Source: Catellatospora methionotrophica
GTDB lineage: Bacteria; Actinomycetota; Actinomycetes; Mycobacteriales; Micromonosporaceae
Assembly: GCF_011297335.1 (NCBI RefSeq)
Contig: NZ_JAAOTJ010000001.1
Coordinates: 1,488,001-1,552,000, forward strand
Length of the DNA stretch: 64,000 nucleotides
Direction: 5' to 3'
In this document: positions 53,774-63,890 of the stretch, piece after piece
Layout: every line of letters begins with the position of its first letter
How positions within the stretch are numbered: the first letter of the stretch is position 1
Made by a program: the position numbers and the translations under genes
Notes under the pieces: generated by a model
What the model was told of the DNA's origin: nothing
The model's input: the letters and a program-made list of their open reading frames with translations, nothing else
The model's database searches: none

Positions 53774-54730
53774 ATGCCCTCCCCCTCACCCGTCTTCGTC
53801 GCGGGCACGGGTCGTTCGGGAACGTCGCGGATCGCCGACATCATCGGCGAACACCCGCAGATCCACCGGATCCCCATGGAGACCAGGTTCATCATCGATC
53901 CGGGCGGGCTGCGCGACGTCGCCGACGCGCTGTCCAGCCGATACGACCCCACCGGCGGCGAGGACGCCCTGCACCGGCTGAGCGACTTCCTCACCGTGCG
54001 GGTGCCCGGCCGGCGCGACGATCGCGGCAAGACCGTTCCCGAGCTGGTCGGCGCGCAGCGCTACCGGGACGCGGTGCAGCGGCTCTGGCCGCGGCTGGTG
54101 GCGTACAGCTTCGACGAGCCCGCCCCCGCGACCGGCTTCGGCGACGGCGACCGTCCCGCCGGGCCGTTCCCGCCGCCGAGCCGCAGCCGGGTGGTCCCGC
54201 GGTACTTCGACGACCGGCGCGAGCTGATCGGGATCCTCCGTGACCTCGTCGACACGACGTTCGGCGGGGCGGCCGCCGACGCGGGCAAGCCGACCTGGTG
54301 CGAGAAGACGCCGTTCAACCTGCTGTGCATGGACTTCCTCTGGGAACTGGTCCCCGAGGCGGCCATCGTGCACATCAAGCGCCACCCGGTGTCGGTGCTC
54401 GCCTCCCACCTGGCCCAGCCGTGGGCGCCGTCCACCGTCGACGGCGTGCTCGCCTATCTCATCCCGATCTACCGCCGGTGGCTGGCCTGGAAGGACACGG
54501 CCGAGCTGACGGGTCGGCGATACGTCGAGGTGAAGGCCGAGGATCTGGCCGCGGACTGGCCCGGTCAGCGCCGCGCGCTGTTCGCCCGGCTCGACGTCGA
54601 CGACTTCGCCACCACCAGGACGTTCGAGGCGCACCGGCTGACCGGCCGCGACGACCAGCTCGACCGCGCGACCCGCGCGTACGTCACCGAGGCGCTCGGC
54701 GACGTCATCCGGGCCATGGGATACGAGTGA
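53774..54730 (+). CDS. Sulfotransferase family protein
   Basis: The 318-residue protein has the PAPS 5'-phosphosulfate loop near the N-terminus (FVAGTGRSGTSRIADII), a WCEKTPFNLLCMDFL segment and the 3'-phosphate site IVHIKRHPVSVLASH. It would transfer sulfate from PAPS to an alcohol or amine. The long insertion around residues 110-150 is proline-rich. No PAPS synthesis genes are adjacent. Substrate unknown; it stands alone upstream of the HAD gene. Confidence 0.8.
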   Translation: MPSPSPVFVAGTGRSGTSRIADIIGEHPQIHRIPMETRFIIDPGGLRDVADALSSRYDPTGGEDALHRLSDFLTVRVPGRRDDRGKTVPELVGAQRYRDAVQRLWPRLVAYSFDEPAPATGFGDGDRPAGPFPPPSRSRVVPRYFDDRRELIGILRDLVDTTFGGAAADAGKPTWCEKTPFNLLCMDFLWELVPEAAIVHIKRHPVSVLASHLAQPWAPSTVDGVLAYLIPIYRRWLAWKDTAELTGRRYVEVKAEDLAADWPGQRRALFARLDVDDFATTRTFEAHRLTGRDDQLDRATRAYVTEALGDVIRAMGYE

Positions 54731-54771: not shown

Positions 54772-55590
54772 GTGATCCGCGTCGTCGCCGTCGACCTCGA
54801 CGGCACCCTGCTCCGCTCGGACGGCACCGTCTCGCCCCGCACCGTGGCCGCACTGCGCCGGGCCGACCGGGCCGGGGCCCGGATCGTCATCTGCACCGCG
54901 CGGCCGCCACGGGAGATCGGCGAGATCGCCGCGGCGGCGGGCGTCGGGGGGACCGCGGTGTGCGCCAACGGCGCGGTGACGTACGACCTGGCCACCGGCG
55001 CGATCGCCATCGTCGGCCCGCTGCCGCTCGACCTCGCCGAGCGGGTCGCGGCGGTGCTCGGCCCGGCCCTGGACGGCGTGGGCTTCGCGGTGGAGACCGG
55101 GCGCCGGGCGCTGATCGCCCCCGGCTTCGATCACGTCAGCTCGCGCAGCATCGTCCGGGTGGCGGTGGCGAGCGTGTCCGCGCTGTGGGCCGAGGCGGAG
55201 AGCTGCGTGAAGCTGCTGGCCTGGTCACCGGCACCGGTCACCGGCGAACTGATCGCCCGGCTGCAGGCGCTCGTGCCCGAGGTGACGGTCACCTGGTCGG
55301 GCGGCAAGGGCATGCTGGAGATCAGCGCGGCCACGGTGTCCAAGGCGGACACGCTCACTCGGCTGTGTGCGGGCTGGGATGTCCCGGCCGATCAGGTGAT
55401 CGCGTTCGGGGACATGCCCAACGACGTGCCGATGCTGCGCTGGGCGGGTGTCGGGGTCGCCGTCGCCAACGCTCAGACGCAGGCCCTGGCCGCCGCCGAC
55501 CGGGTCACCGCTAGCAACGACGACGACGGCGTCGCCGTGGTGCTGGAGGAGCTGTTCCCCGGCGGCAGTGGTGTCGTACCCGCCCGCTAG
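54772..55590 (+). CDS. HAD-superfamily Cof-type phosphatase
   Basis: The 272-residue protein has the HAD motifs in order: VAVDLDGTLLRSDG (nucleophile Asp), TARPPRE, the substrate-facing SGGKGMLEIS cap segment, the KADTLTRLC lysine and AFGDMPNDVPML with the metal-binding acids. This is the Cof/YbiV class that dephosphorylates sugar phosphates or flavin nucleotides. GTG start. Independent of its neighbours. Confidence 0.88.
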   Translation: MIRVVAVDLDGTLLRSDGTVSPRTVAALRRADRAGARIVICTARPPREIGEIAAAAGVGGTAVCANGAVTYDLATGAIAIVGPLPLDLAERVAAVLGPALDGVGFAVETGRRALIAPGFDHVSSRSIVRVAVASVSALWAEAESCVKLLAWSPAPVTGELIARLQALVPEVTVTWSGGKGMLEISAATVSKADTLTRLCAGWDVPADQVIAFGDMPNDVPMLRWAGVGVAVANAQTQALAAADRVTASNDDDGVAVVLEELFPGGSGVVPAR

Positions 55591-55629: not shown

Positions 55630-55950
55630 ATGTTTCGACAGGGCGATGTGCTGGTGGTCCCGATCACGCGGGAGGAGCTGCCGCCGGACCTGATGCCCGC
55701 GCCGCGTGACCGGCGCAACCGCATGGTGCTGGCGCTGGGCGAGGCGACCGGGCACGCGCACGTGGTCACCGGCGAGCGGGTCGCGATGCTGTGCCCGCCC
55801 GACGACCCGGGCAAGTTGTACCTGCTGATCGAGGGCTACGGCCGCCTGGTGCACGAGGAGCACGGGCCGATCTCGCTGGCCGCGGGCGCCTACCGGGTGG
55901 TCCGCCAGCGTGAGTACTTCCCGGGCGCGATCCGCCCGGTCGCGGACTGA
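55630..55950 (+). CDS. Small conserved protein associated with DUF6745 (106 aa)
   Basis: The 106-residue product opens MFRQGDVLVVPITREELP and has GEATGHAHVV and the C-terminal LAAGAYRVVRQREYFPG. It looks like a small beta-barrel. From memory such proteins sit beside DUF6745 genes in distant bacteria; function unknown. It is 13 bp upstream of the DUF6745-type gene. GGAG lies 7 nt before the ATG; a GTG two codons earlier is possible. Confidence 0.65.
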   Translation: MFRQGDVLVVPITREELPPDLMPAPRDRRNRMVLALGEATGHAHVVTGERVAMLCPPDDPGKLYLLIEGYGRLVHEEHGPISLAAGAYRVVRQREYFPGAIRPVAD

Positions 55951-55963
55951 GCGCGCCGTGGAC

Positions 55964-57124
55964 ATGAGCACGCAGACGACGGCGACCACGCAGGCCGCGA
56001 GCGACGGGCAGCGGCCGAACCGGCGCGAGGCCCGCCGGAACGAGGACATGGCCCTGGCCGCGCGGGCCGAGCGCTGGATGGCGACCGGCCTGAGCACCGA
56101 GCCCGCCGACCGGGCGGGCGCCGAGGCGGGCGTGCGGATCGCGTACGCGCTGGCGGGGCTGCCCGCGCCGGGGCGGATGCTGTGGCTGGGCTCGCCCGCG
56201 GCGGGCGCGACGGCGGTGGCGATGCTGCGCACCGGCCTGCCCGGAGACCCGAAGGTCCGCGAGGCACTGGCCGCCCAGGGCGTCCACGACCTCCAGCTCG
56301 GCCGCAGCGTACGCCCCCAGGTGCGCACCCGCCCCTGGGCACAGGCACGGTCCGCGCTGGCCGAGCGGCGCGGCGCGGTCGGCTTCGCCCGGCACTGGGC
56401 CGCCACCGCCCGGCGGCCCTGGCAGCAGCTCGTCGACCAGCTCGCCACCCCGCTGCGCACCCGGCTGACCGAGCAGTTCGGCGCGGTCGGCGGCGAATTC
56501 GGCCGCGCGCAGCAGGACGCGCTGCTCGACGTGGTCTACGGCCAGCACGACGCGGCCTGGCTGGGCGCGTTCGACAGCGATCCCGACGTCGACGGCCTGG
56601 CCCGGGTGGCCGCCAGCGCGGGCTGGTGGTGGGCGTTCGAGCACGTCGCGATCCTCACCGAGCGCCCGCGCGCGGTGCACCGCGACAACCTGGGCCGCCT
56701 GCACCACGGCGACGGCCCCGCGCTGTCCTACCCGGATGGCTTCGGCCTGCACGCGTGGAGCGGCATGCCGATGCCCGCCGAGATCGCCGCCGAGCTGCCG
56801 ACGCTGACCGTGGCGCGGATCCGCCGCGAGTCCAACGCCGAGATGCGCCGGGTGATGCTGGAGCACTTCGGGTTCGACCGCTACCTGCGCGAGTCCGGGG
56901 CGGTGGAGACGCAGTCCGACCGGTTCGGCAAGCTGTGGCGCGTCGAGCTGCCCGGTGACGAGCCGCTGGTGATGGTCGAGGTCCTCAACGCCACCGCCGA
57001 ACCCGACGGCACCTTCCGGACGTACTTCCTGCGGGTGCCGCCGGACACGCAGACCGCGCGGCACGGCGTTGCCTGGTCGTTCGGCCTCAGCTCGCGGGAG
57101 TACGCGCCGGAGCAGGAGACCTGA
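55964..57124 (+). CDS. DUF6745-type protein
   Basis: The 386-residue protein has a basic/charged lead, a helical N-terminal half (GLPAPGRMLWLGSPAAGATAVAML cut), and a C-terminal domain with ILTERPRAVHRDNLGRLHHGDGPAL.YPDG.GLHAW and VARIRRESNAEMRRVMLEHFGFDRYL. This HRD..G.LHH.DGPA..YPDG pattern is what I recall as DUF6745; function unknown. The last 38 bp overlap, convergently, the 3' end of the radical SAM gene, linking the two loci closely. ATG at 55964. Confidence 0.7.
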   Translation: MSTQTTATTQAASDGQRPNRREARRNEDMALAARAERWMATGLSTEPADRAGAEAGVRIAYALAGLPAPGRMLWLGSPAAGATAVAMLRTGLPGDPKVREALAAQGVHDLQLGRSVRPQVRTRPWAQARSALAERRGAVGFARHWAATARRPWQQLVDQLATPLRTRLTEQFGAVGGEFGRAQQDALLDVVYGQHDAAWLGAFDSDPDVDGLARVAASAGWWWAFEHVAILTERPRAVHRDNLGRLHHGDGPALSYPDGFGLHAWSGMPMPAEIAAELPTLTVARIRRESNAEMRRVMLEHFGFDRYLRESGAVETQSDRFGKLWRVELPGDEPLVMVEVLNATAEPDGTFRTYFLRVPPDTQTARHGVAWSFGLSSREYAPEQET

Positions 57125-58001
57125 GCACCGACACCGGCACGCCCCAGGTCGGCGGGGGCCCGGCGGGGATGCGCTCGGGCACCCCGCCGGCGAAGACCTG
57201 GTGCAGCTTGAGGCGCTTGAGGTGCACGTACCCGATGTGGCAGTCACAGGTCGCCTTGCCGCAGGGGCGCGGGCGCAGCGCGGCGCGGTAGCTGCCGTCG
57301 TACAGGCTGCCCAGCGGCTCGGGCAGGAAGTGGCAGCGGCGCACCGTGCCGTCGCCGAGCACCGACAGCGACGTCTCGCCCGCCCCGCACTCGTGCCCGG
57401 CTGACGCGTGCGGGCGCACGCTGTACCCGAACAGCGGGTCGATGGCCGTCCACGCCGCCTCGGCCCCGGCGTCGTAGGTGTGCCCGTCGGCGGCGTTGAT
57501 CCACAGGTAGGTCGCCGGGGGCAGCTCGGCCCGCAGCGCGACCGCCTCGGCGTGGTGCTCGGGCAGGCCGACCATGCCGACCGAGTGCCGGATGCCGTGC
57601 CCGCGCAGCGTCGCGCACGCCGCCAGGAAACGTTCCCGGCGCACCTGGCCCGGGTGGTAGGTCGCCCACAGCGCGAGCCGGTCCGGGTCGGCGTCGGCGA
57701 CCCAGCCCAGGCGCCCGGCCAGGTTCGTCTGGATGGCCACCTTCGCCACGTGCGGCAGGTGCGACAGGCGCACCAGCGCGTCGCGATACCAGGACCGGGT
57801 CAGCCCCTCGCCCCACGGCGTGAACAGCACCGACAGCGTGTCGCCGGCGGGGTTGTCGGCGACCCAGCCGGTGAACCGGGCCAGCGCGGCGCGGTCCTCG
57901 GCGAGCTGCGCCCGGCTGTCGCGCCGCTTCGCGAACGGGCAGTACGGGCAGTCGAAGTTGCAGCTCGCCAGCGGCCCGCGATACAGCAGCAGCAGGTTCA
58001 C
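57087..58001 (-). CDS. Radical SAM protein, STM4011 family
   Basis: The 304-residue protein has a CxxxCxxC cluster site (SCNFDCPYCPF, about residues 12-22) and a C-terminal set of cysteines (ECGAGETS, VRRCHF, CGKATCDCHIG) able to hold a second Fe-S cluster, as in SPASM-type enzymes. It matches the conserved but uncharacterised STM4011 family. It is last in a five-gene operon; GTG overlaps the stop of the STM4012-type gene by 4 bp. It would make a carbon-centred radical on an unknown substrate. Confidence 0.82.
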   Translation of the reverse strand: MNLLLLYRGPLASCNFDCPYCPFAKRRDSRAQLAEDRAALARFTGWVADNPAGDTLSVLFTPWGEGLTRSWYRDALVRLSHLPHVAKVAIQTNLAGRLGWVADADPDRLALWATYHPGQVRRERFLAACATLRGHGIRHSVGMVGLPEHHAEAVALRAELPPATYLWINAADGHTYDAGAEAAWTAIDPLFGYSVRPHASAGHECGAGETSLSVLGDGTVRRCHFLPEPLGSLYDGSYRAALRPRPCGKATCDCHIGYVHLKRLKLHQVFAGGVPERIPAGPPPTWGVPVSVLRSPAPARTPAS

Positions 58002-59389
58002 CGCAGCACCGCCCGCGCCATCGCCGCCCGCACCGGCCCCGACACCAGCCACGGCCCGATCGCGTCGCCGTGCGCCAGCCCCTCGTCGGTCAGCGCCACC
58101 CGGTGGCCGTCGTCCTTGGCCCAGCCACGGTCGGCCAGCTCGGCCAGGTGCGGGAAGTCGGCGTCCACCGTGGACCCGAACCGGGCCGCATAGCCGGGCA
58201 GGTCGACGCCCTCGGCCCGCAGCAGCGACTTCACCAGCCAGCGCAGCCGCTGCTCAGCCTCGTCGAGCGCGAACCCGAACTCGGCGTACGCGAAGTCGGC
58301 GGCGGGCCGGGACACGTAGTCGTCGATGATCGCGCGCACCTCGCGCACGCTGACCGCGTAGTCGAACGAGTAGTGCAGGTCGGCGGTGTACGACCGGGCC
58401 CCGCAGCCCACGCCGACCATGCCGTCGTCCTGGCAGCAGTAGTCGGCCCCGTCGGGGTCGGGCACGTCGGCGCGGCGGAACTGGCGCATGGACAGCTGCC
58501 GGTAACCGGCCTCCCGCAGCAGGTCACGGCCATGGCGGTAGAGGTCGAGGCGCTGGGCGTCCCACGACGCGTCGCGATCCGGCACGGCAGCCGGCGTCGG
58601 CGGCAGGTCGGGTGCCCGCCCGGCGGCGGCCGGGCCGGGCAGCGACAGCAGGCCCTCCCGGCGGCCCAGCCCGGTCAGCGGGCGCACGTACAGCGGGTAG
58701 AGGTAGACCTCCTCGGGTCGCCAGGTCAGAGCCTCGCGCAGCGAGTAGGTCCAGGTGTCGCGGGTCTGGCCGGGGATGCCGTAGATCAGGTCGACGTTGA
58801 GCAGCGGGAACGCGGCTTCGCGTAGCGCGGTCAGGGCCCGGTCGACGTCCGCGCGGCGCTGCGGCCGCCCGGCGGCGTGCGCCTCGGCGTCGAGGAAGCT
58901 CTGCACGCCCATGCTGACCCGGTGGGTGCCGTGCGCGGCGAGCACCGCGAGCCGGTCCGGGGTCGCCGTCGCGGGTGAGGTCTCCACGGACAGCTGCGCT
59001 GCGGCCGGGTTCAGACCGAGCACGCCGTTGGTGATCGCGAACAGGTCGGCCAGCTCGTCGGCGGTCAGGTGGGTCGGGGTGCCGCCGCCGATCGCGGCGC
59101 GGGCGTAGCGGGCCGGGCCGAGTGCCGCCGCGACCTGCTCGGCCTGCACCCGCAGCTGGCGCAGGTACGCGCCGACCTGCTCGGCGGGCGGCTGGGCGCG
59201 GGTGAACAGGTTGCAGAAGCCGCACCGCATCTCGCAGAACGGGATGTGCAGGTACAGGAACAGGGCGTCGCGGGGCTGACCGGCCCACACGTCGCGCAGC
59301 GCCGGGCGCGGGCGCAGCGGCCGGTACGCCGTCTTGTGCGGGTACGCGTACAGGTAACCCTGGTACGGCGACCCGTCCAGCCCCGTCAC
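57998..59389 (-). CDS. Radical SAM protein, STM4012 family (HemW-like)
   Basis: The 463-residue protein resembles the coproporphyrinogen-oxidase/HemW branch: LFLYLHIPFCEMRCGFCNLFT with CxxxCxxC, IGGGTPT SAM-binding glycines, and NVDLIYGIPGQT. A Cys pair CCQDDGMVGVGCGARSYT lies later. It matches the STM4012 family. GTG overlaps the previous gene's stop (GTGA). Function unknown; it may act on the same substrate as the second radical SAM enzyme. Confidence 0.83.
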   Translation of the reverse strand: MTGLDGSPYQGYLYAYPHKTAYRPLRPRPALRDVWAGQPRDALFLYLHIPFCEMRCGFCNLFTRAQPPAEQVGAYLRQLRVQAEQVAAALGPARYARAAIGGGTPTHLTADELADLFAITNGVLGLNPAAAQLSVETSPATATPDRLAVLAAHGTHRVSMGVQSFLDAEAHAAGRPQRRADVDRALTALREAAFPLLNVDLIYGIPGQTRDTWTYSLREALTWRPEEVYLYPLYVRPLTGLGRREGLLSLPGPAAAGRAPDLPPTPAAVPDRDASWDAQRLDLYRHGRDLLREAGYRQLSMRQFRRADVPDPDGADYCCQDDGMVGVGCGARSYTADLHYSFDYAVSVREVRAIIDDYVSRPAADFAYAEFGFALDEAEQRLRWLVKSLLRAEGVDLPGYAARFGSTVDADFPHLAELADRGWAKDDGHRVALTDEGLAHGDAIGPWLVSGPVRAAMARAVLR

Positions 59390-60201
59390 CACTCCCCCGG
59401 CGACAGCGCGAACTCGGCATACGGCACCGTCCACACCACGTCGTGCCCGACCCGGTGCCCGTGGTGACCGTCCTCGCCGTACGCCGTGCCGTGGTCGGCG
59501 CACAGCACCACGAAACACGGCCGCCGACGCCAGGTGAGCAGCGTGAACAGGCGCGGTAGCAGCGTGTCGACGTAGCGCAGCGCGGCCGCGTGACTGTCGG
59601 GGCCGTCCTCGGTCGCGCCGGGCAGGTAGTGCCGGTTGGGCTGGTGCAGGGCCGACACGTTGAGGAACGTGAACAGCGGCCTGGCCGCCGGGGCGGCGAC
59701 GACGCTCTCTTCGAGCTGGTCGAGCTGGTGGCTCAGCGAGTCCGGCTCGGTCACCCCGAACGACGGCCGCCAGTGGTCCTCGGCGAACAGGTCCGGCAGC
59801 ACGCTGCCCAGCGGCGACAGCCGGTTGAAGAAGCCCACCCCGCCCAGGCACAGCGTGTGATACCCGGCCTTCGCCAGCCCCGTGACCAGGTCAGGCGCGT
59901 CGAACACCCAGGTGCCCTCGGCGGTGCTCTCACTGCCGGGAAAGCGCGCCGCGAACAGCCGCTCGTGCGGCCCCGGCGTCACCGGCGTCGGCAGAAACCC
60001 CGCGAAGAACGCATGATGTGCCGCATACGTGAAGCTCGCCGGCGTATGCCGCGCCTCCCACCGCCCACCCGGCAGCACCTTGACCACGTGGGGCGTACGC
60101 CCCGCCGCCGCCTCCCCCGCCGCGACGTCATACCGCAACGTATCGACCGTGACCAGCGCAATATCCCACGCCCCCACCATGGACGCCATGTCGACGCTCA
60201 C
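59386..60201 (-). CDS. STM4013/SEN3800-family hydrolase (sulfatase/alkaline phosphatase fold)
   Basis: The 271-residue protein has a metal-binding Asp in LVTVDTLRYDVA, a FTYAAHHAFFAGFLPTP region where the nucleophile Thr/Ser would lie, and the C-terminal metal site VLCADHGTAYGEDGHHGHRVGHDVVWTVP with DH and H..H pairs. It belongs to the alkaline phosphatase superfamily and to the STM4013 family by context. No signal peptide. GTGA overlap with the ATP-grasp gene. It may remove or transfer phospho- or sulfo-groups. Confidence 0.82.
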   Translation of the reverse strand: MSVDMASMVGAWDIALVTVDTLRYDVAAGEAAAGRTPHVVKVLPGGRWEARHTPASFTYAAHHAFFAGFLPTPVTPGPHERLFAARFPGSESTAEGTWVFDAPDLVTGLAKAGYHTLCLGGVGFFNRLSPLGSVLPDLFAEDHWRPSFGVTEPDSLSHQLDQLEESVVAAPAARPLFTFLNVSALHQPNRHYLPGATEDGPDSHAAALRYVDTLLPRLFTLLTWRRRPCFVVLCADHGTAYGEDGHHGHRVGHDVVWTVPYAEFALSPGEW

Positions 60202-61268
60202 GCCGCCACCCCGGTGCGGGTGAGGAGGGCGGCGACTTCGGCGTCGTAGGTGTCGCGGCCGTCGACGAGGAGGCCGGGGAGCAGGTCGCCGAAGGCGTTG
60301 ACCTCGGCGACGGCGTGGGAGCGCCAGCCCGCGGCGAACATCAGGTCGATGCCGGTGTGCAGGCTGCCGGGGAAGCGGGCGGCGACGGCGCGGCAGGTGT
60401 CCAGGCCTTCGGCGTAGTGCCGCCCAGCGGCGGCGCGCAGCGCGCACAGGTCGCCGCGTACGCCGCCCAGGTGCAGGTTCGTCATCGGCGAGCGGCTGCC
60501 GCGCACCACCACGTGCGACGGTTCGCCCGCCACGGTGACCACGCGCAGGTCGACGACGCGGCCGTCCAGCCCGGCCTTGGGCAGCCAGCGCTGCACCTGC
60601 AGCCCGTCGGGGGCGAGTGCGTCCACGATCGCGGCGACGTCGCGCTCGTCGCGGTAGTGCCGCACCCGCAGCGAGTTGAACAGCCGCCCGCCGGACAGCT
60701 CCACCGACGTGGTCGCCAGGACCCGGCCGCCGCTGCCGAGCTGCAACGCGATCACCCCGGAGGCCGACGAGCCGTGGCACGGCTTGACGAACACCCGCCG
60801 CCAGCCGGTCTCGTCCAGCCACGATCGCAGCTGCGCCCAGCTCGCCGGGGAACCGGGCAGTGCGGCGGGCACGGGGATGCCCGCCGCGAGCAGGCGCGCG
60901 TGACAGGCGGCCTTGTCGAACATGACCAGGATCTCGGCCGGGTCGGCCAGCAGCGACGCGCCCTGCTCGCGGGCGGTGTACGCGACCCGGTCCAGGGCGG
61001 CGGCGAACCCGGTGTACCAGGCCCGGCCGCCGACGATCTCGCCCGGCTCGGCGACCGCGACGGCACCGCGCAGCAGCCGGTCGACCTCGGCGTCCTCGCC
61101 GGGCGACTCGACGCGTACGACGGTGCCGGGCCGCAGCCGCAGCGGAACGCCGGTGAGCACGTCGCGCCAGGACACGATGTCGGGTTCGGACAGCCCCGCG
61201 CGTACGGCCGCTGCGGCGAACAGGGTGACGCGGCGGTGGCCGGGGTTGCCGACGACGGTGACGTGCAT
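60198..61268 (-). CDS. STM4014-family protein, ATP-grasp-like
   Basis: The 356-residue protein shows ATP-grasp features: RRVFVKPCHGSSASGVIAL with Lys and the flexible glycine-rich loop, DLRVVTVAGEPSHVVVR and the late metal-binding AVAEVNAFGDLLPGLL. ATP-grasp enzymes join a carboxylate to an amine or thiol through an acyl phosphate. This fits the STM4014 family. Its ATG follows the TAG of the LRR gene directly. In the operon it could ligate an amino acid to the substrate of the radical SAM pair. Confidence 0.8.
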   Translation of the reverse strand: MHVTVVGNPGHRRVTLFAAAAVRAGLSEPDIVSWRDVLTGVPLRLRPGTVVRVESPGEDAEVDRLLRGAVAVAEPGEIVGGRAWYTGFAAALDRVAYTAREQGASLLADPAEILVMFDKAACHARLLAAGIPVPAALPGSPASWAQLRSWLDETGWRRVFVKPCHGSSASGVIALQLGSGGRVLATTSVELSGGRLFNSLRVRHYRDERDVAAIVDALAPDGLQVQRWLPKAGLDGRVVDLRVVTVAGEPSHVVVRGSRSPMTNLHLGGVRGDLCALRAAAGRHYAEGLDTCRAVAARFPGSLHTGIDLMFAAGWRSHAVAEVNAFGDLLPGLLVDGRDTYDAEVAALLTRTGVAA

Positions 61269-62192
61269 CTACTCGGAGACCGCGATGTAGCGGTCGTCCC
61301 AGTCGCGCTCGTCGGCCCCGGAGGCGTCCAGCTCCACGCCGGACGCGGCCAGCTCGGCGGTCAGCCGTTCCAGCACCGGCGCGCCGATGAAGTGGTGGTG
61401 CAGGTCCAGTTTGCGCAGGTGGGTGAGCGGCTGCCCGGCCAGCAGCGCGGCTGCGCCCTCGTCGCTGAGCATGCCCAGCGACAGGTCCAGCTCGCGCAGC
61501 CGGGCCACCACCGGCGCACCGGCCAGCGCCACCGCGACCAGGTCGGCGATCTCGGCGTCGCGCAGGGCCAGCGAGGTCAGCGCGGGCAGCCGGGTGCCGG
61601 CCAGGATCGGCGCGAGGTCGTCGACGGTCGCGTCGCCGCCGTAGTTCTCGGTGCCGAGCCACAGCTCCAGGTGGGTCAGCGCGGGCAGGTCGCACTCGGC
61701 GACGGCGCGCACGACGTCGGCGGGCAGTCCGCCGGACTCGATGGTCAGCGAGCGCAGCGCGGTGTGCCGCAGCGGCTTGAGGCCCAGGCCGGTGGCACCG
61801 CGTACGGTCAGCACCTCCAGCAGCGGCAGCGCCTCCAGCAGCGGAGTGATGTCGGCCTGCTGGATCCAGGAGATCTCGCACTCCTCGTACGTCATCTCGC
61901 CGAGGAACAGCGCCCGCAGCCGGGTGAACCGCGGCAGCAGGGCAGCGAGCCGCTCGATCGGCGGGGCGCTGTCGTATGCCCCGCCCCAGTTGCCGACGAT
62001 CAGCGCGGTCACCTGGTTGGCCCATTCCTGCGCAGCCAGCGCTTCGAGCCGTTCCAGGAACTGGCCGGTGTTGTCGTAGTCCGGGTCCTCCAGCCGCCAG
62101 GCGGTGCCCGCGTGGGACGCCTTGCCCAGGTCGGCCGGATACTCCGCGACGGGTTTCCCGGCGAACGTCGTGATGTGGGAGCCGATCGTCAT
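61269..62192 (-). CDS. STM4015-family leucine-rich-repeat-like protein
   Basis: The 307-residue protein is made of degenerate leucine-rich repeats, for example LTSLALRDAEIADLV, LRELDLSLGMLSDEG and LRKLDLHHHFIG, with a ~70-residue lead (ITTFAGKPVAEYPADLG). It matches the STM4015 family and would provide a binding scaffold. GGAGG lies 8 nt before the ATG at 62192. It is first in the operon and the only gene with a separate promoter region. Confidence 0.8.
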   Translation of the reverse strand: MTIGSHITTFAGKPVAEYPADLGKASHAGTAWRLEDPDYDNTGQFLERLEALAAQEWANQVTALIVGNWGGAYDSAPPIERLAALLPRFTRLRALFLGEMTYEECEISWIQQADITPLLEALPLLEVLTVRGATGLGLKPLRHTALRSLTIESGGLPADVVRAVAECDLPALTHLELWLGTENYGGDATVDDLAPILAGTRLPALTSLALRDAEIADLVAVALAGAPVVARLRELDLSLGMLSDEGAAALLAGQPLTHLRKLDLHHHFIGAPVLERLTAELAASGVELDASGADERDWDDRYIAVSE

Positions 62193-62492: not shown

Positions 62493-63890
62493 ATGTCCGA
62501 CACCACCCAGACCCGCCGCGGTCGCTGGGCCGCCGCCGGGCTCGCCCTGGCCACCGCGGCCGTCGGCGCCGCCGTCGCGCTGGCCCCGGCCACGGCGCAG
62601 GCGGTCGTGCTGCCCAACGGCTTCAAGAGCGTGGGCTACATGCCCTCGTGGGCAGGCAACGTCAACACCGTGCAGTACGGCAAGCTGACGCACATCAACT
62701 ACGCCTTCGTCCTGCCGAACTCCAACGGCAGCCTGCAAGGGCTGGACAACCCGTCCAAGCTGTCCTCGCTGGTCTCGCTGGGCCACGCCAACAACGTGAA
62801 GGTCTCCATCGCCGTCGGCGGCTGGAACGACGGCAACGACCAGGCCTTCGAGGACCTGGCCGCCAACGCCACGGCCCGCACCGCGTTCGTCAACAACCTG
62901 GTGAACCTCGTCAACCAGTACAACCTCGACGGCGTCGACATCGACTGGGAGTACCCGGACACCACCGCCGAGAGCAACAACTACACGGCGCTGATGAACC
63001 AGCTCAGCACCGCCATGCACACCCGGGGCAAGCTGCTCACCGCCGCCGTGGTGTCCGAGGGCAGCACCGCCAACTTCGTGCAGCCCGCGGTGTTCAGCGC
63101 GGTCGACTGGCTGAACATCATGGCGTACGACGGCGGCAGCCCGCACGCCAACTACAACTGGTCGATCAACGCGGTCAACTCGTGGAAGTCCCGCGGCCTG
63201 CCCGCCAGCAAGGCCGTGCTGGGCGTGCCGTTCTACAGCCGCCCGACGTACTACACGTACAGCCAGCTCGTCGCGATAGACCCGGCCAACGCCAACCGCG
63301 ACTGCACCACGGTCAGCGGTGTGCAGCAGTGCTACAACGGCCTGCCGACCATCCGCAGCAAGACCGCGTGGGCCAAGGCCAACGCCGGCGGCATCATGAA
63401 CTGGGAGCTGTCCCAGGACACCACCGGCTCGACGTCGCTGGTCAGCGCGATCTACGAGGTCGCCATCGGCGGCACCACCCCGCCGTCGTCGCCGCCCCCG
63501 GGCGGCCGCACCGGCCGCATCGTCGGCCAGGCGTCGGGCAAGTGCGTCGACGTCGCCGCCGCCTCCACCGCCAACGGCACCGCGATCCAGCTCTACACCT
63601 GCAACGGCACCACGGCGCAGAACTGGACCATCGGCACCGACGGCACCGTCCGCGCGCTGGGCAAGTGCATGGACGTCACCAGCGCCTCCACCGCCAACGG
63701 CGCCCTGATCCAGCTCTGGGACTGCAACGGCTCCGGCGCCCAGGTCTGGCAGCCGCAGTCCAACGGCAACCTGCGCAACCCCGTCTCCGCCAAGTGCCTG
63801 GACGCCAAGGACCTGGGCACCGCCGACGGCACCCGCCTGCAGATCTGGACCTGCGCCGCCTCCGGCAACCAGATCTGGACCCTGCCCTGA
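62493..63890 (+). CDS. Secreted chitinase: GH18 with ricin-type lectin domain
   Basis: The 465-residue protein has a Sec signal (about residues 1-37), a GH18 catalytic domain (about 42-325) with DGVDIDWEYPD carrying the catalytic Glu, and a ricin/CBM13-like lectin (about 345-465) with three QxW repeats (QNWTI, QVWQP, QIWTL). It would degrade chitin or N-acetylglucosamine polymers outside the cell. GAAGGGA precedes the ATG. Ends just before a hairpin. Confidence 0.9.
   Translation: MSDTTQTRRGRWAAAGLALATAAVGAAVALAPATAQAVVLPNGFKSVGYMPSWAGNVNTVQYGKLTHINYAFVLPNSNGSLQGLDNPSKLSSLVSLGHANNVKVSIAVGGWNDGNDQAFEDLAANATARTAFVNNLVNLVNQYNLDGVDIDWEYPDTTAESNNYTALMNQLSTAMHTRGKLLTAAVVSEGSTANFVQPAVFSAVDWLNIMAYDGGSPHANYNWSINAVNSWKSRGLPASKAVLGVPFYSRPTYYTYSQLVAIDPANANRDCTTVSGVQQCYNGLPTIRSKTAWAKANAGGIMNWELSQDTTGSTSLVSAIYEVAIGGTTPPSSPPPGGRTGRIVGQASGKCVDVAAASTANGTAIQLYTCNGTTAQNWTIGTDGTVRALGKCMDVTSASTANGALIQLWDCNGSGAQVWQPQSNGNLRNPVSAKCLDAKDLGTADGTRLQIWTCAASGNQIWTLP

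Follow-up and report, generated by a model that had tools for sequence, protein, structure and literature searches.

A conserved C-terminal glutamate marks the leucine-rich repeat protein STM4015 as a probable substrate of the STM4011–STM4015 operon

Introduction

What does a bacterial operon act on that combines two radical S-adenosylmethionine (SAM) enzymes with an ATP-grasp ligase, a phosphatase-fold hydrolase and a leucine-rich repeat (LRR) protein? We addressed this question for the STM4015-STM4014-STM4013-STM4012-STM4011 operon within a stretch of 64,000 nucleotides from Catellatospora methionotrophica (RefSeq assembly GCF_011297335.1, contig NZ_JAAOTJ010000001.1, positions 1,488,001 to 1,552,000; host genome of 8.39 Mb in 56 contigs). 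This whole stretch is referred to as the window, and coordinates are window positions unless a locus (L number) is named.

The five families are catalogued. However, no functional account of STM4011-STM4015 (or of PRK08208, SEN3800 or DUF6745) was found in searches that covered mostly the open-access literature, in agreement with an earlier reading of the window from its letters alone (the sequence-only reading), which had stated that no pathway is assigned. That reading had placed five overlapping or abutting genes in one direction at 57087-62192, and coordinates and junctions were all confirmed: the stop codon TAG of STM4015 abuts the ATG start of STM4014, and three GTGA overlaps connect STM4014/STM4013, STM4013/STM4012 and STM4012/STM4011. 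The family naming was upheld as well, as all five products passed the curated NCBIfam cut-offs in profile searches:

61269..62192, minus strand: STM4015, LRR protein of 307 amino acids (aa), ATG start, tail ...WDDRYIAVSE; NF038076, 360.8 bits against a cut-off of 275
61269..61292, minus strand: codons of the STM4015 C-terminal tail, RYIAVSE and stop TAG, last residue Glu307
60198..61268, minus strand: STM4014, ATP-grasp ligase of 356 aa, RimK/LysX-like; NF038074, 424.2 bits against 175
59386..60201, minus strand: STM4013, alkaline-phosphatase-superfamily hydrolase of 271 aa, GTG start; NF038075, 400.6 bits against 250
57998..59389, minus strand: STM4012, HemN-like radical SAM enzyme of 463 aa, GTG start, C52xxxC56xFC59; NF006067, 607.1 bits against 380
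57087..58001, minus strand: STM4011, radical SAM enzyme of 304 aa, GTG start, SPASM/twitch-like second set of cysteines; NF038073, 383 bits against 200

Here we propose, with a probability of roughly 0.6, that STM4015 proteins are the substrates of this operon: STM4014 would ligate a group to their terminal glutamate, which STM4012, STM4011 and STM4013 would then remodel.

Results

STM4015 proteins terminate in a fixed glutamate

In all loci then collected, the last residue was Glu in 134 of 137 STM4015 frames with a score above 55 and a stop codon present; frames without a stop inside the locus or under the score limit are skipped in this count, which is partly non-independent as some genomes overlap (e.g. 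L208 and L047; L006 was removed as a duplicate of the window). The other four families together had a C-terminal Glu in 5 of 356 cases (STM4014 1/86, STM4013 1/95, STM4012 0/90, STM4011 3/85). The three exceptions among the STM4015 frames (L042, L043 and L106) are N-terminal pieces of interrupted genes that cover profile positions 4-242, 1-157 and 3-125, and in each case a separate frame holds the C-terminal part and terminates in the tail. This tail reads mostly [YF]xxVxE and is preceded by a variable acidic linker. Position -3 of the Glu-ended frames is in most cases V (126), I or L, and S, A, G or T prevail at position -2. In a set of 134 sequences, S, A, G, T or D make up most of position -2, and the stretch from -9 to -17 varies and is 27-56% acidic. 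Glu307 (132/134) is the one polar or charged column of this set to reach 97% conservation, and it is among the 14 invariant columns of a smaller alignment (50/50 sequences aligned).

In the AlphaFold2 model of STM4015, the LRR body has a mean predicted local distance difference test score (pLDDT) of 95.0, while the last two blocks score 70 and 73 and are without secondary structure. A Foldseek search with this model returned PDB 2ra8 as the top match, an uncharacterized structural-genomics entry (Bacteroides fragilis Q64V53) that was deposited without a function. It is a homologue of STM4015 (profile E 2.5e-70) and likewise carries Glu at the last profile position (...SYPMITE, residue 354 of the 362-residue chain). 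Some STM4015 relatives bear a WGR domain at the N-terminus (myxobacterial L174, planctomycete L101, Bacteroides L037); published work that gives a function to Q64V53/2RA8 or to WGR with LRR in myxobacteria was not found in mostly open-access literature.

In the tail, conservation peaks at the last residue and nothing follows it, which is the pattern of an attachment site. The sequence-only reading had seen no precursor peptide and had given STM4015 the role of a scaffold. As to the former, STM4015 itself appears to be the substrate, and the latter now seems too weak: the invariant C-terminal Glu, the multiple copies and the link to the ligase gene described below mark STM4015 as the likely substrate or carrier, that is, the 'missing precursor'.

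The tail is linked to the ligase gene

Of 86 STM4014 genes, 81 have a STM4015 frame as their immediate upstream neighbour, no more than 400 bases away. As to the other five, L003 and L004 are short loci truncated on the upstream side, the gap measures about 410 bases in L083 and about 1,900 in L074, and in L060 the profile found no STM4015 within the locus, the genome holding one elsewhere (L122). The STM4015-STM4014 pair also stays together where it is oriented opposite to STM4013-STM4012-STM4011 (Myxococcus L073, Myxococcales bacterium L110 and planctomycete L167). The number of STM4015 frames above 100 bits per locus was one (53 loci), two (25), three (4), four (3) or six (1); these are counts of frames, and the two in L043 together make up a single interrupted gene.

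Ten further loci of the window's family gave the same picture, with 17 of 17 STM4015 frames ending in Glu (some of these genomes repeat loci already named). Within the Planctomycetota, copies adjoining the ligase gene (L148, L149, L150, L151) are Glu-ended; away from it, L152 and L154 are without a terminal Glu and L153 is interrupted by a stop. The tail is also missing from three paralogues of the window's family that lie outside the operon, L155, L156 and L157 (L157 being matched in part).

A larger sample came from the Myxococcota, where 67 of 193 genomes had an STM4015-like match at E ≤ 1e-15, none of them above the cut-off. STM4014 was present in 60 of these 67 genomes, compared to 0 of 13 without such a match, and predictions made before this search were right for five genomes (G772, G773, G778, G792 and G737). 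In the 66 genomes with a frame over the limit (which leaves G760 outside), tail and ligase co-occurred in 60, both were absent in 4, the tail alone was found in 2 and the ligase alone in none (Fisher p 2e-5); this count comprises 126 distinct C-termini from related, not independent genomes, of which G405-G408 had been inspected earlier. A terminal Glu was present in 76 of 81 proteins encoded beside the ligase gene, in 32 of 38 encoded apart from it in ligase-bearing genomes and in 3 of 7 in ligase-free genomes. One genome (G792) holds eleven STM4015-like proteins on separate contigs, all of them Glu-ended (ten with the strict motif), together with one ligase match.

The five genes form one system

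In the window's family, of which 111 genomes were surveyed, STM4014 and STM4011 exceeded their cut-offs in an identical set of 45. STM4015 did so in these 45 and in G372 (46/111), and STM4013 in the 45 plus G372, G326 and G386 (48/111; the survey covered these four families). The three additional genomes belong to one genus, g229 (L159, L160, L161). Besides STM4015 and STM4013, G372 yielded weak matches to STM4014 (30 bits) and STM4012 (136 and 35 bits) only, and in 13-kb stretches around STM4013 of G326 and G386 the other operon genes were not found. Because of these weak remnants, or of STM4013 without the other operon genes, the g229 loci look like decaying operons in which STM4013 remains alone or with STM4015.

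Annotated five-gene operons occur in Salmonella, Paenibacillus, Methylobacterium, two Deinococcus and one Streptomyces record, and our own profiles detected all five genes in 77 fetched loci. We encountered all five families in Salmonella, Paenibacillus, Deinococcus, Methylobacterium, actinobacteria and planctomycetes, and the majority of them in Bacteroides and myxobacteria. At the Bacteroides finegoldii locus (L037, 3882-7899), STM4015, STM4014 and STM4011 are there, STM4013 is damaged and a match to STM4012 was not found. A presence in E. coli was considered and dropped, as the Salmonella operon had no near (megablast) match in a collection of 5,426 genomes. A lack of conserved co-occurrence, which the sequence-only reading had named as a result that would speak against it, was not what we saw: the five genes are one system and their grouping is not due to chance.

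STM4014 resembles ligases that act on C-terminal glutamates

The AlphaFold2 model of STM4014 (pLDDT 94.1) gave ArgX with LysW as the top Foldseek match (3vpb, E 1.5e-13), followed by LysX/ArgX with LysW-gamma-AAA (5k2m). Further down the ranks were DcsG (5), RimK-RpsF (5zk6; 9), the graspetide ligase PsnB with its precursor (14) and Ddl (15). Together with the NF038074 match, this ArgX/LysX/RimK-like fold fits the former ATP-grasp-like label. At the level of profiles, the best PDB match was 1uc8, a 'lysine biosynthesis enzyme' (E 1.4e-4), and E. coli RimK aligned with STM4014 at E 2.1e-6 and a probability of 89%; D240-x-R242, N264-L-H266 and E322-V-N of STM4014 fall on RimK equivalents. Within a 42-member STM4014 alignment, rimK_fam was the most frequent match outside the family (37/42). 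LysX_arch (TIGR02144) weakly matched 27 of the 42 members (best E 1.1e-7), and the window STM4014 gave no match to it at E 0.01. Ligase and LRR protein also differ in charge, with a median isoelectric point of 8.88 for STM4014 versus 4.47 for STM4015 (8.43 versus 4.59 for the window proteins).

The fold match directs attention to amino-group carrier proteins (AmCP). According to PMC10433800, LysX links its substrate through the amino group to the gamma-carboxyl of the terminal Glu in LysW, whose end is EDWGE; LysX/ArgX use the C-terminal Glu of LysW/ArgW, and a Glu-to-Ala exchange in ArgW makes a haloarchaeon an arginine auxotroph. PMC9303977 gives the same attachment to the C-terminal Glu for AmCPs and adds that positive residues on the enzymes meet negative ones on the carriers. 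The translation of operons from distant phyla had already given a C-terminal Glu in every STM4015 that was read, and this tail was noted before the STM4014 fold match was obtained; tail conservation and ligase fold are two separate lines of evidence.

Several observations weigh against STM4015 as the substrate of STM4014. The fold of the ligase alone is not specific, since 562 PDB chains match it at E ≤ 0.001 (the 50 listed show 12-18% identity); DcsG and Ddl score nearly as high as ArgX/LysX, and STM4014 reaches 19 bits against the RimK cut-off of 143.4. Also the coupling of tail and ligase has gaps. One copy away from the operon (L158) retains the tail, its genome having the ligase elsewhere. 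Two weak off-operon LRR relatives from Myxococcus (L134, 95 bits, and L137, 96 bits; genomes G405/G406) end in ...YVRE, which is not the full motif; in three others (L133, L135 and L138) the last residue is not E. In the cyanobacterium Calothrix, where the search covered a plasmid, a solitary STM4015-like gene (L146, 2014-3288) still ends in ...DRYCSVAE. The advance prediction for G625 was wrong, and in G625 and G788 a tail was found and the ligase was undetected (genome completeness not established). In ligase-bearing Myxococcota, 11 of 119 STM4015-like proteins are without a terminal Glu, five of which adjoin the ligase gene. Finally, if the product were released, no amide hydrolase would account for that step.

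The same observations allow other readings of tail and ligase. The tail might serve solely as a recognition or sorting signal, with STM4014 acting on a free small molecule and STM4015 as a scaffold. Binding would also conserve the tail, and the folds of DcsG and Ddl, both of which act on small molecules, are close to that of STM4014; however, conservation is strictest at the final residue with none following, and we regard this reading as improbable.

Alternatively, STM4014 may merely add glutamates to the C-terminus of STM4015, with the radical SAM enzymes acting elsewhere. The C-terminus of ribosomal protein S6, the target of RimK, ends in Glu, and both systems would have an ATP-grasp relative acting at a Glu-ended protein, as the frequent rimK_fam matches and RimK-RpsF among the fold matches suggest. 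Unlike RimK, STM4014 is linked to radical SAM genes, and its presence in exactly the same 45 genomes as STM4011 argues for one pathway, so that simple glutamylation appears quite improbable.

An even less probable reading is that STM4014 cyclizes STM4015 through its tail Glu as a lactam or lactone, without an external building block. PsnB with its precursor is among the fold matches, as such a reaction would have it. Graspetide core peptides, however, have a conserved internal nucleophile and an acidic acceptor, whereas the STM4015 tail has no conserved Ser, Thr or Lys and hence no fixed nucleophile nearby.

The enzymes that would remodel the attached group

STM4012 and STM4011 are radical SAM enzymes as judged by family match and cysteine motifs. 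CxxxCxFC is present in 90 of 90 STM4012 homologues. The best NCBIfam matches of STM4012 outside its own family NF006067 are HutW (E 1.2e-36) and HemW (E 4.2e-36), and in the PDB it matches HemN (1olt, E 4.5e-25) and the methyltransferase NocN (9p2u, E 1.7e-19). The former assignment to the HemW type therefore holds only in part: HutW, HemW, HemN and NocN are the nearest relatives, but STM4012 stays below the cut-offs of HutW (TIGR04107, 126.5 versus 400 bits), HemW (TIGR00539, 124.8 versus 205.4 bits) and HemN, and the HNxxYW motif of HemW occurs in 0 of 90 homologues. An involvement of the operon in haem metabolism, with STM4012 as a HutW/HemW-like haem enzyme, would draw on these closest matches. 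Given how far they lie under the cut-offs, and with no obvious place for the LRR and ATP-grasp genes in such a pathway, we consider it extremely unlikely.

STM4011 contains CxxxCxxC and Cx9-15Gx4C in 83 of 83 homologues and a second conserved set (C205, C223, C247, C252 and C254). The extra SPASM-like cysteines of the sequence-only reading correspond to these five conserved cysteines, whose order is SPASM/twitch-like. The SPASM signature consists of Cx9-15Gx4C followed by Cx2Cx5Cx3C; the second part occurs in 0 of 83 homologues, and 81 have Cx4CxCH. PF13186 gave no match in the window STM4011 and a weak one in the Bacteroides protein (18.3 versus 21.5 bits).

For STM4013, the nearest profile matches are nucleotide pyrophosphatase/phosphodiesterases (NPP; 2gsn/7n1s, E about 5e-8) and sulfatases, which, with NF038075, agrees with the previous alkaline-phosphatase-fold label. 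Its conserved columns comprise the invariant Thr58 and H62 as well as D20, D236 and H237; we take the latter three to be metal-ligand-like and Thr58 to sit where NPPs have their nucleophile. The [CS]xPxR active-site motif of formylglycine sulfatases occurred in 0 of 93 homologues, although PF00884 was reached (28.3 versus 25 bits). On a Streptomyces albidoflavus plasmid (L035, 5842-9883), STM4013 occurs without the operon, amid MoaA-like radical SAM, dTMP-kinase-like, NUDIX and lasso-peptide B2 genes. Because of the MoaA-like, dTMP-kinase-like and NUDIX neighbours, this copy hints at a small phosphorylated substrate for STM4013, possibly derived from a nucleotide.

Among the best 80 of 574 STM4013 relatives, a selection biased to actinobacteria, the closest named ones are from Catellatospora (82% identity) and Hamadaea (79%). 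Seven relatives lie on viral contigs; those from IMG/VR (L140-L145) are distant (27-32% identity), and with our profiles no further gene of the operon was detected in the viral stretches. A role of the operon in defence was considered and set aside: the one weak PADLOC match, PDC-M51A to STM4012 (E 9.1e-7), was taken as a generic radical SAM match.

Neighbouring genes and frequent partners

Three genes on the opposite strand are potential partners of the operon:

55910..57124, plus strand: DUF6745 protein, convergent with the operon; PF20530, 316 bits
55624..55950, plus strand: conserved protein of about 108 aa that ends in QREYxPxxxxxVxD, upstream of DUF6745; PHROG phrog_27831, E 5.6e-16, function not assigned there
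54772..55590, plus strand: Cof-type HAD-IIB phosphatase, tentative accessory; TIGR00099, 152.1 versus 137 bits

The earlier proposal to look for a constant sixth partner led to a frequent, not a constant, one. DUF6745 was present in 61 of 77 five-gene loci, likewise the small protein of about 100 aa (61/77), and both adjoin the operon in the window and in the Methylobacterium, three Deinococcus and Streptomyces records. In the 111-genome sample, high-scoring DUF6745 (above 290 bits, a threshold set after seeing a gap to the next score of 150) occurred in 27 of 45 operon genomes versus 0 of 66 others (p 3.5e-14), in 25 of the 27 within about 8 kb of STM4011. With a threshold of E ≤ 1e-20, DUF6745 was present in 32 of the 111 genomes, five of which had a low-scoring form without the operon (G299, G315, G321, G336 and G397). 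As 18 of 45 operon genomes are without the high-scoring form, DUF6745 is a frequent and not an essential partner.

Near operons, these proteins have fixed C-termini themselves, VxD in 63 of 63 small proteins and Thr in 62 of 63 DUF6745 proteins. DUF6745 was considered as a second tagged substrate and rejected: the C-terminal Thr is also kept in 10 of 13 off-operon copies (L294-L306), which makes it a feature of the family at large rather than a mark of the operon. On Deinococcus ficus plasmid pDFI2 (L173, 8453-14779), the small protein and DUF6745 occur without the operon, followed by a VWA protein, two hypothetical proteins, a glutathionylspermidine synthase family protein and an ion transporter. 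The glutathionylspermidine synthase family is of the ATP-grasp type, and this locus possibly represents a second system that uses the pair.

A Cof-type HAD follows STM4011 in Salmonella (174.5 versus 137 bits), and in Bacteroides finegoldii STM4011 is fused to a Cof-like HAD domain (70.1 bits, below the TIGR00099 cut-off). By a three-seed profile, it adjoins the small gene in no locus other than the window, L039 and L040. With links this few and scattered, the phosphatase was dropped as a constant partner and an accessory role stays tentative.

The other surroundings of the operon consist of a divergent GH18 glycosyl hydrolase with a ricin-type lectin domain (62493-63890, plus strand), an ordinary neighbour, and of an open frame at 53774-54730 (plus strand) that, judged by a motif, presumably resembles a sulfotransferase.

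Discussion

Our analysis suggests that the STM4011–STM4015 operon modifies its own LRR protein at the last residue. STM4014 would activate a carboxylate of the terminal Glu of STM4015 with ATP as an acyl phosphate and join it to an amine-bearing building block, and STM4012, STM4011 and STM4013 would build or trim the group on the Glu. The general idea of the sequence-only reading, ligation followed by radical alteration of a small molecule or protein, fits this scheme and is narrowed to the C-terminal Glu of an LRR protein.

The closest parallel would be the AmCP systems, with which the operon shares a Glu-ended protein and an ATP-grasp ligase. In contrast to the zinc-binding LysW with its EDWGE end, STM4015 is an LRR protein of about 300 aa with a mostly [YF]xxVxE tail; STM4014 is no LysX/ArgX by sequence and matches them in fold; and two radical SAM enzymes and a phosphatase-fold hydrolase stand in place of LysZ/Y/J/K, a set of which no member turned up in the scan of nine window proteins or in the gene names of annotated operon regions. 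There are also several STM4015 substrates per ligase gene. This parallel raises the possibility that STM4015 holds an intermediate as LysW does, the small molecule being hydrolysed off and the LRR protein recycled. The same C-terminal Glu, the ArgX/LysX-like ligase anatomy and the charge pairing would agree with such a carrier, and so would a small phosphorylated molecule as the substrate, as the off-operon neighbours of STM4013 suggest. On the other hand, the five genes include no peptidase, and up to 6 diverged STM4015 frames per operon, or 11 scattered copies with one ligase gene, are more than would be expected of a recycled carrier, which leads us to consider it rather unlikely. For STM4015 as a modified substrate, we lean slightly towards a finished group that stays on the LRR protein rather than being released, because a single ligase gene can occur alongside several LRR proteins that have diverged but bear the tail, and because the operon encodes no peptidase.

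The pearlins TglA and TmoA offer a second comparison. According to PMC9303977, a building block is joined to the C-terminus of a peptide and then modified, with a radical SAM enzyme in the tmo pathway. The order proposed for STM4015, C-terminal joining to a genetically encoded polypeptide and subsequent modification, would be alike, whereas an LRR protein, large and folded, would take the place of the peptide. Ligases of the PEARL type are dehydratase-like and not known to be ATP-grasp enzymes, and none was matched among the nine window proteins scanned.

If the group is retained, the operon may work in trans. We tentatively put forward, with the odds somewhat against it, that one ATP-grasp/two-radical-SAM machine puts a permanent prosthetic group or warhead, built by its enzymes, on the C-terminal Glu of diverged, genome-scattered LRR proteins (WGR-LRR proteins in some phyla). 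The LRR surface would then select the partner and the common tail would bear the chemistry, giving LRR effectors or sensors of ribosomal origin that are conjugated at the C-terminus. Our searches of mostly open-access literature found no publication in which leucine-rich repeats, radical SAM, ATP-grasp and a carrier protein come together, and as far as these show, the proposed substrate, the ligation site and the trans-acting tail are new.

Naming a probable substrate residue reduces an unknown radical SAM operon to a mass-spectrometry question on one peptide, and a system of unknown function would gain its first testable mechanism. If our proposal is true, the C-terminal-Glu carrier chemistry of lysine and arginine biosynthesis extends to large LRR proteins, the structural-genomics entry 2ra8 gains a meaning, and an unseen modification may be present on many proteins whose annotation says no more than leucine-rich repeat.

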